This document shows, piece by piece, positions 2,306 through 3,295 of a DNA stretch of 64,000 nucleotides (position 1 is the stretch's first letter; each line of letters begins with the position of its first letter). Source of the stretch: Candidatus Gastranaerophilales bacterium (GTDB lineage: Bacteria; Cyanobacteriota; Vampirovibrionia; Gastranaerophilales; Gastranaerophilaceae); assembly GCA_944323155.1 (NCBI GenBank), contig CALURL010000001.1, positions 1 to 64,000 of the forward strand. The letters are read 5' to 3'. Both the position numbers and the translations under genes were made by a program. The notes beneath the pieces are model-generated. The model had not been told where the DNA came from and searched no databases. It saw only the letters and a program-made list of their open reading frames with translations.

Positions 2306-2536
2306 TTAAAGTTGTTGTTTATATCCCAGATAATTATTGATTAGTTCTAATAATTCTTTATAACTTTTTATATCTTCATTTGGAGCATTATTTTTCACTA
2401 AATTATCAATGTGACCTTCAACTAAAAATTTCAATAAATTCATTAAAGCTAAACTTTGTTCTTCCTTAGTTGATTCACTGTCCTCTATTTCTATATCAAC
2501 AGTAATTCCATCGATTTCACATCTTTTTATTAACAT
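2306..2536 (-). CDS. Small unknown acidic protein, 76 aa
   Basis: An open frame on the minus strand gives a Glu/Asp-rich helical protein. Residues about 25-45 form an amphipathic helix, and the C-terminus is another helix. There is no signal peptide and no clear ribosome-binding site, but the codon pattern looks coding. I recognise no family. It lies alone inside the mobile-DNA scar, divergent from the structured RNA at 2590-2818, and both sit between the two tRNA-like segments. Confidence 0.45.
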   Translation of the reverse strand: MLIKRCEIDGITVDIEIEDSESTKEEQSLALMNLLKFLVEGHIDNLVKNNAPNEDIKSYKELLELINNYLGYKQQL

Positions 2537-2589
2537 ATTTATTGTATAATGATTTTTAGAAATAAATCAATTTGAACATTGAATAATTC

Positions 2590-2818
2590 AACACAGGGTA
2601 AAAGATGCCTTTTCTATGGAAACTGACTGACATTTTTAATTAGACTTTCGGGTTAGTTCCCGACTAGAAAGGTGGTCAATATGGATAATTTCAATTTAGC
2701 ATTATTTTTAATCTTTTTGATTTTATGCGTATTAAAAAGCGGCTCTCATCTTAATAGATAAGAACCGTTAGACTTTCTACAAGGCATCTGGTAGCTTGAG
2801 AAACTACCACCCTGTGTT
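2590..2818 (+). ncRNA. Closed structured RNA with internal micro-ORF (type I toxin-like, undescribed)
   Basis: The ends pair over 10 bp (2590-2599 with 2809-2818) and again over 9 bp (2603-2611 with 2781-2789), both perfect. A 3' hairpin GGTAG/CTACC lies at 2790-2808. Inside are a hairpin CGGG/CCCG at 2649-2662 and a stem at 2740-2767 built of CGG/CCG, TCT/AGA and ATCT/AGAT separated by C.A mismatches. Two identical copies of TTAGACTTTC (2640-2649 and 2768-2777) can each pair with the Shine-Dalgarno region of the micro-ORF at 2681. A TATAAT box lies upstream at 2545-2550. This matches no RNA family I know by sight. Confidence 0.6.
2681..2761 (+). CDS. 26-residue hydrophobic peptide inside the structured RNA
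   Basis: ATG at 2681 follows the site AAAGGTGG at 5 nt spacing and the frame closes with TAA after 26 codons. The peptide has a polar start, a single hydrophobic segment of about 15 residues (LALFLIFLILCVL) and a short basic, polar tail. That layout fits small membrane peptides of type I toxin systems. The ribosome-binding site can be masked by upstream or downstream anti-SD copies in the surrounding RNA. There is no evidence of toxicity, and a leader-peptide role is also possible. Confidence 0.5.
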   Translation: MDNFNLALFLIFLILCVLKSGSHLNR

Positions 2819-3295
2819 TCTATTATAAATTATCTATTTTTATTTTTCAACCCCGTTAATATAATTTTCTATTTCCGAATAAAGGATAATTATTTGTGGA
2901 GATGATAAAACGGGTTGTAAAGTTTTGTTAAAGAGTTCGAACAAAGTCCTATCATCCGCCCCATTTTTAACATTTTTTCAGTATTTCATCTTATAGGATA
3001 CTGGAAATAATTTAGAGGTTCGTTATTTTAGATTAAGGGGGGGGGTATCTCTCTTTTTAACTTTGGGAATCAAGTCTGATGGCAAAACGATTATATCCAC
3101 AGTATTAAGTATTTTTTTATTCTTTATTTCTATTTATGAAATGTCGTAAAGCACTAGTTCCACAGAAACAACTAAAATATATATACCATATATATCAAGG
3201 CAGTTAAATCATAATGGTTAGTATTTACTAACTTGAGCCTGTAATAATTTTGGTATAAACATGTTTATGATAATATGTCTATAAAAGGAGTGGAT
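2819..3295. other. Non-coding scar with tRNA-like copy B and a G9 tract
   Basis: I see no credible gene here. It holds the second tRNA-3'-half-like segment (2915-2968: TTGTAAAGT, AGAGTTCGA, CCGCCCCATTTTT). A partly complementary 5' flank (GATGAT near 2901 against ATCATC at 2951-2956) looks like a degenerate acceptor stem. Nine G lie at 3037-3045. The rest is AT-rich leader for the secreted protein at 3296. Confidence 0.5.
3037..3045 (+). repeat. G9 homopolymer in non-coding DNA
   Basis: Nine consecutive G in very AT-rich sequence. It resembles the G tracts inside the three prepilin-like genes of this window, but no prepilin motif follows in any frame. Confidence 0.7.

Follow-up and report, generated by a model that had tools for sequence, protein, structure and literature searches.

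The question raised by positions 2590-2818 of the 64,000-nt stretch analyzed here (the window) is whether a short, strongly folded element carries a toxin gene under RNA control and, if so, which RNA exerts that control. The first-pass annotation had proposed a type I toxin-like module with a tiny hydrophobic peptide. Comparison with many covarying homologs in which the reading frame is conserved supports this proposal, and we give a probability of about 0.82 to the reading of the element as a type I toxin-antitoxin locus from a family not described before. The whole evidence base consists of assembled genomes, MAGs for the most part. From these, the element appears to be a gene of ~220 bases with a frame for a 26-residue membrane peptide on the plus strand and a predicted small antisense RNA, missed in the first-pass annotation, on the minus strand.

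Layout and reading frame of the element

The features of the element are as follows.

2590-2599, plus strand: 5' strand of helix P1, AACACAGGGT, the perfect complement of 2809-2818
near 2593, plus strand: predicted start of the sense mRNA, behind a sense promoter that is weak in the window copy
2603-2611, plus strand: 5' strand of helix P2, AGATGCCTT, forming 9 bp with 2781-2789
2603-2616, plus strand: 5' arm, with 2781-2789 as predicted partner in the full-length mRNA and the Shine-Dalgarno (SD) sequence, via CCUUUUCUA, in the nascent mRNA
2640-2649, plus strand: direct repeat copy 1, TTAGACTTTC, in an apical loop within the 5' UTR; the antisense RNA is predicted to pair here in trans
2666-2675, plus strand: SD sequence, AGAAAGGTGG; GAAAGG is nearly invariant in the alignment
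2681-2761, plus strand: toxin-candidate frame of 26 codons, encoding MDNFNLALFLIFLILCVLKSGSHLNR
2735-2815, minus strand: predicted antisense RNA (antitoxin) of ~80 nt, with promoter, terminator and covarying fold
2740-2767, minus strand: intrinsic terminator hairpin of the antisense RNA, with a U-run at 2738-2734
2768-2777, no strand assigned: direct repeat copy 2, TTAGACTTTC, template for the single-stranded linker of the antisense RNA
2781-2789, plus strand: 3' strand of helix P2, AAGGCATCT
2790-2808, minus strand: stem-loop 1 of the antisense RNA, with compensatory changes; the mRNA has the complementary hairpin
2809-2818, plus strand: 3' strand of helix P1, ACCCTGTGTT, closing 10 bp; CCCTG is conserved
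2822-2850, minus strand: antisense promoter, TTGAAA-17-TATAAT, matching 11/12 consensus positions

The two perfect end-joining helices of 10 and 9 bp, the micro-ORF with its good SD sequence, and the identical 10-nt repeat copies upstream and downstream of it, all described in the first-pass annotation, are present as read there. The plus strand folds to -71 kcal/mol, compared with -44.2 +/- 4.2 kcal/mol for dinucleotide shuffles (z = -6.3; 0/200), and the minus strand folds equally strongly against such shuffles (z = -6.2). CAGGG is kept at both ends of the element in nearly all homologs.

Across 35 distinct frames, the toxin-candidate frame had a pN/pS of 0.45, indicating purifying selection, and contained no stop codon (0/35), whereas the other plus-strand frames gave 0.79 and 2.98 and were stopped in all or most sequences. 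Entropy at codon positions 1, 2, and 3 was 0.73, 0.19, and 0.83, so that the second position is nearly fixed. Residues N5 and L8 of the peptide are invariant and K/R19 is nearly so, no tryptophan appears at any listed residue position of the 35 frames, nearly all of 50 elements have a frame of 26 codons, and the SD sequence and the ATG are conserved among homologs. By these comparative measures, the 26-codon frame is a real coding frame for a hydrophobic peptide. The first-pass annotation had named a frame broken in relatives while the fold persists as the sign of a plain non-coding RNA; the opposite was found, with the frame conserved across relatives. Other family peptides named alongside that of the window copy are MDKFNISLLLIFLILYILKNGSYLNR and MENINLTLILLILILFILKNGSYLNR.

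The statement that no known family matches also held. Searches of the peptide against Pfam and NCBIfam returned no family match and no toxin match, and Rfam 15 gave no match at the gathering score and nothing relevant at E<=1. Two divergent members, L143 and L144, encode the peptides MSEYTLGLILISIILFIIKTTPKK and MQEINLTLILVLLILFIIRCASNHKD in the same layout, which suggests from sequence comparison that the superfamily may be wider than our covariance models capture.

Predicted antisense gene, mRNA folding, and direct repeat

The stem at 2740-2767 had been described as an mRNA stem punctuated by symmetric C.A mismatches. These oppositions exist on the plus strand; on the minus strand they are U.G pairs of a terminator hairpin, and the hairpin is more stable there for this reason. 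Its minus-strand version was the stabler one in 46/46 homologs (mean, -17.0 kcal/mol versus -9.0 kcal/mol for the plus strand), which rules out the stem as a plus-strand mRNA feature. The plus-strand version is thus weaker by 8 kcal/mol, and only on the minus strand does a U-run follow the hairpin. In a generic scan of 2450-3050, minus-strand 2767-2740 was the sole terminator-like site; the scan gave no intrinsic terminator for the sense mRNA. The antisense terminator sits inside the last codons of the toxin-candidate frame.

The antisense promoter matched a mean of 10.96 of 12 consensus positions in 46 homologs, compared with 7.21 for shuffled sequence, and in 43 of the 46, exactly 7 nt separate the end of its -10 element from CAGGG. 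The first-pass annotation had asked for covariation in homologs, and it was found, compensatory changes on the minus strand included: RNAalifold predicted two minus-strand stem-loops with 26 pairs, of which 17 show compensatory changes, at -33.3 kcal/mol, while the plus-strand consensus reached -15.9. Collectively, the predicted promoter, the terminator, and the covarying fold argue for an antisense RNA gene that overlaps the toxin mRNA. The sense promoter is weakly defined (8.5/12 versus 7.35 for shuffled sequence), especially in the window copy, and together with the 3' end of the mRNA it is the weakest part of the model.

The closure of the mRNA and the masking of its SD sequence, both claimed in the first-pass annotation, fared differently in their details. 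Closure stood, through co-variation: the duplex between an element's own 5' and 3' ends averaged -18.7 kcal/mol, compared with -15.4 +/- 0.35 kcal/mol when ends were permuted among elements (0/2000), which supports a modeled end closure of the full mRNA, as in aapA. Masking of the SD sequence was also predicted, with the 5' arm and not the repeat as the probable masker. In the nascent RNA, the predicted probability that the SD sequence is unpaired was 0.15, compared with 0.38 when the upstream 5' UTR was shuffled, and the 5' arm was its main partner, accounting for 0.75 of the predicted pairing probability. Repeat copy 1 is predicted to be exposed at this stage (mean unpaired probability, 0.71). 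With SD pairing early and 3'-end pairing late, the 5' arm would have two successive partners in this folding model.

The repeat itself had been read as the SD mask. Its complementarity to the SD sequence is limited to the repeat type of the window copy and is not conserved; most repeat types, for example CTTAGAACTC and TTCAAACCTC, are not complementary to GAAAGG, which rules out this role. Types that lack such complementarity nevertheless keep a match between their two copies. The longest word shared by an element's own copies averaged 8.78 nt, compared with 5.42 +/- 0.21 nt after permutation (0/5000), and with one representative for each of the 28 repeat types, the values were 8.46 and 5.21 +/- 0.24. 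A direct repeat cannot pair with itself, and the antisense linker is complementary to both copies, so the antisense RNA could also pair, in trans, with copy 1, which precedes the SD sequence. In line with this, the duplex between an element's own linker and 5' UTR reached -14.9 kcal/mol, compared with -8.9 +/- 0.40 kcal/mol for permuted pairs (0/5000). Transition differences between the copies were all of the kind compatible with G.U pairing in the antisense:mRNA duplex (8 versus 0, or about 6 versus 0 without two poorly aligned cases). Neighbors within an array carry different words and pair mainly with themselves, as in the L064 array, where self-pairing values along the diagonal were -16.5, -12.6, and -17.6 versus -4.0 to -10.2 for cross pairs. 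L014 is a clear exception to repeat matching (-5.0 kcal/mol), and a distant pair at L104 likewise lacks a repeat match.

For a held-out test, an antisense-only model was used from which the frame start and the 5' UTR were excluded. A hydrophobic frame lay opposite the antisense RNA in 30 of 32 distinct new matches, with 25-26 codons in 29 of these, and when applied to 29 new elements, the repeat test gave 8.28 versus 5.11 +/- 0.29 nt (0/5000). These comparisons indicate that the pairing potential between antisense RNA and toxin mRNA co-varies, and repression by this pairing is predicted. The repeat is best read as a putative antisense-recognition site and not as an SD mask; because ~16 nt separate copy 1 from the SD sequence downstream of it, pairing at copy 1 would leave the SD sequence itself uncovered.

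Distribution, decay, and genomic setting

The genome from which the window comes holds a second intact copy (on C20) and a copy missing its 5' half (on C21). A DNA search of 59 relatives found matches in 14 genomes, and scanning 84,980 species genomes for a pattern yielded 36 loci, titled mostly Candidatus Gastranaerophilales, Melainabacteria, or uncultured bacterium; the two records titled Brachyspira and Acinetobacter are probably mislabelled MAGs. A covariance model of the antisense part of the element, R1, detected it in 107 of 288 sampled genomes of the GTDB family, in 26 of its 41 genera and with up to 8 copies per genome. An order-wide sample added one positive genome, G046, from another family, and all positive genomes of a phylum-wide sample (57/57) came from the one GTDB family. 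Some copies form tandem arrays, 2 to 5 in a row, as at G103:C28, G256:C34, and L064. Phage and plasmid collections yielded short chance matches only, and scans of IMG/VR with three patterns yielded none. In the literature, we found no paper joining a type I toxin-antitoxin system or RNA motif with Melainabacteria, and the two that joined such terms with Gastranaerophilales did so incidentally.

Loss within the family is lopsided. In 136 genomes, matches to the antisense model were compared with those to a separate model of the 5' UTR and frame start: 80 antisense matches were paired with a toxin half and 11 stood alone, 5 of the latter above 60 bits, with antitoxin-only units reaching 88 bits. 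Toxin-half matches alone numbered 7, all at or below 31.6 bits. Two of these, L143 and L144, were set aside as toxin-only candidates because they read as divergent full members, and a third, L145, is a fragment of an interrupted element; the remaining four score 21-24 bits, so that no convincing antitoxin-free toxin was found beside the 80 paired loci of these 136 genomes. Four solitary antisense genes, L137-L140 (G121:C26, G150:C7, G065:C65, and G114:C34), keep promoter and terminator and have no toxin gene, and their homology to the toxin-antitoxin family begins at the terminator U-run. Further copies pair a dead toxin with an intact antisense gene, the start codon being lost in L103, the SD sequence deleted in L069, the frame shifted in L088, and the 5' half replaced in the C21 copy, although a search with the antisense model favors copies whose antisense gene is intact, a bias that only the two-model comparison corrects. 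This asymmetry is as predicted for a harmful peptide and a harmless antidote, and argues indirectly for that relationship. At L145 (G124:C23:90600-91300), an insertion of ~110 nt splits the 5' UTR, and part of the SD region is duplicated on both sides. In the C21 copy (L003/L010), the replacing sequence contains the repeated motif GTAGGTTGGGCATACNTGCCCAAC, which may be a miniature mobile or REP-like repeat.

In the window, the element lies close to a prophage, and its surroundings include the following features.

738-2009, strand not given: right end of the prophage, with a DUF1353/tail-chaperone-like gene, a small holin-like gene, and an Amidase_2 endolysin
2172-2205, no strand assigned: att-like repeat derived from the 3' end of tRNA-His, at the junction with the prophage on its left
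2935-2968, no strand assigned: second att-like repeat; homology with relatives ends at CCGCCCCA

The endolysin end of the prophage abuts the first of these repeats. The two repeats are divergent and resemble the 3' end of tRNA-His; the tRNA-His gene itself is absent from the window. Between them, a segment of ~770 bp (2172-2968) holds a conserved 76-aa frame (2306-2536, minus strand) and the toxin-antitoxin element, and the same segment follows an intact tRNA-His gene in L047, L049, and relatives. The "mobile scar" that the first-pass annotation placed beside a phage block can therefore be identified as a small att-bounded segment of ~0.77 kb. Because homology in relatives ends at the right-hand repeat, it may be a minimal integrated cassette. 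The toxin-antitoxin element is not part of the prophage. A perfect 14-nt inverted repeat, TTCGAACTCTTTAA / TTAAAGAGTTCGAA, at 2296-2309 and 2928-2941, flanks the 76-aa frame and the element. Across the family, most genes next to the element are of an ordinary chromosomal kind, among them flhB, uppS/Ham1, and tyrosyl-tRNA synthetase; DUF1353, which is also present in the lysis cassette of the window's prophage, occurs in 5 of 94 neighbor proteins.

Proposed mechanism, rival readings, and known systems

We propose that the plus strand would be transcribed into an mRNA of ~220 nt for a single-helix membrane peptide of 26 residues. As the 5' region emerges, the 5' arm would pair with the SD sequence and keep the nascent mRNA silent, while a recognition sequence of ~10 nt is shown in a loop; once the mRNA is finished, its 5' and 3' ends would pair and close the molecule. 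A strong minus-strand promoter would meanwhile provide a constitutive antisense RNA of ~80 nt, ending at the terminator in the last toxin codons. This RNA would be the full complement of the 3' part of the mRNA, and its linker, transcribed from copy 2 of the recognition sequence, would allow it to pair with copy 1 upstream of the SD sequence as well, leading to a block of translation or to cleavage. If stress or the loss of the locus stopped antisense synthesis, the mRNA would outlast the antisense RNA, perhaps with activation by processing, and the presumed toxic peptide would be made, giving the locus a possible role in addiction.

A peptide this strongly conserved, with N5 and L8 invariant in the 35 distinct frames, might be a non-toxic regulator, such as a membrane-protein binder under antisense control outside any toxin-antitoxin system. 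We consider this unlikely, since the patchy spread, the tandem arrays, the diversifying repeats, and the toxin-less antisense genes fit addiction-like modules better. The scattered, multicopy occurrence of a short element with inverted ends in many intergenic contexts is also what a miniature transposable element would show, the 10- and 9-bp helices being its terminal inverted repeats. However, two convergent predicted transcription starts fall on the outer inverted repeat, with their promoters beyond it, and each copy has its own co-varying pair of inner arms in place of a fixed terminal sequence, which makes this reading very improbable. Slightly less credible again is a structured non-coding RNA, from either strand, with an incidental reading frame. 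Both strands do fold far better than shuffles, and the antisense RNA is well defined as a unit by itself, yet the pN/pS of 0.45 belongs to this frame only, the other plus frames are stopped, and nearly all copies keep the 26-codon length together with the SD sequence and ATG.

A broader version of the type I reading is tentative, and we would give it somewhat less than even odds. Here, the family would be confined, so far, to the order Gastranaerophilales, and the direct repeat would act as a diversifying address code, the same word of ~10 nt standing twice in each copy, in the antisense template as well as at the mRNA site that the antisense RNA would bind. Tandem paralogs would be mutually orthogonal, solitary antisense genes would be possible anti-addiction or immunity units, and Fst-type recognition would have been combined with aapA-type closure by convergence. 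If the toxin-antitoxin reading is true, the family is a widespread one, present in about one-third of the sampled genomes of one GTDB family, and its hosts are uncultured, non-photosynthetic gut relatives of cyanobacteria. Its natural variation (28 repeat types, tandem arrays, and solitary antitoxins) would suit the study of how antisense specificity diversifies and how toxin-antitoxin loci decay, and the co-variation of the repeats makes a direct swap-type test possible.

Type I systems had been described as known from Proteobacteria, Firmicutes, and Tenericutes alone until candidates were reported from Microcystis in 2025 (PMC12390103). That report presented msoT1/msoA1 of Microcystis aeruginosa as the first candidate type I system in the phylum Cyanobacteria, and it is the only one reported there (PMC12390103); by description, it is set apart from the present element by candidate toxins of 39-81 residues versus 26 and by its photosynthetic host. 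Like hok/sok, the element would have a stable mRNA closed between its 5' and 3' ends under antisense control, but its peptide has no Pfam match to Hok and its antisense RNA is positioned differently. We do not claim membership of Fst/Ldr or aapA/IsoA, because there is no Pfam or NCBIfam match, no Fst tryptophan, and no bidirectional terminator.

The likeness to aapA/IsoA of Helicobacter (PMC6733600) lies in an mRNA of ~220 nt with long-distance 5'-3' closure (in the element, predicted and backed by co-variation), metastable 5' hairpins that sequester the SD sequence, an antisense duplex of ~80 bp, and several module-specific copies per chromosome. In contrast to that system, the antisense promoter of the element lies beyond the 3' end, its antisense RNA spans the last part of the frame together with the 3' UTR, and a second site for trans pairing is predicted in the 5' UTR. 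The Pfam and NCBIfam searches linked the element's peptide to no known toxin family. The par locus of pAD1 (fst/RNA II; PMC7472228) differs in having two repeats, DRa and DRb, where the element has one repeat pair, and in placing them over the SD sequence and start codon, whereas the element's repeat is upstream of the SD sequence. The shared bidirectional terminator of par is absent, that of the element acting on the antisense strand only and inside the toxin frame; the antisense RNA of the element is ~80 nt, its host belongs to a different phylum, and its peptide is unrelated and has neither the Fst/Ldr tryptophan nor the charged tail. The two loci resemble each other in their convergent promoters, a small antisense RNA, an mRNA of ~220-230 nt that encodes a tiny hydrophobic peptide, an SD-hiding hairpin and 5'-end helix, and direct repeats that are transcribed in both RNAs and vary between paralogs (PMC7472228).
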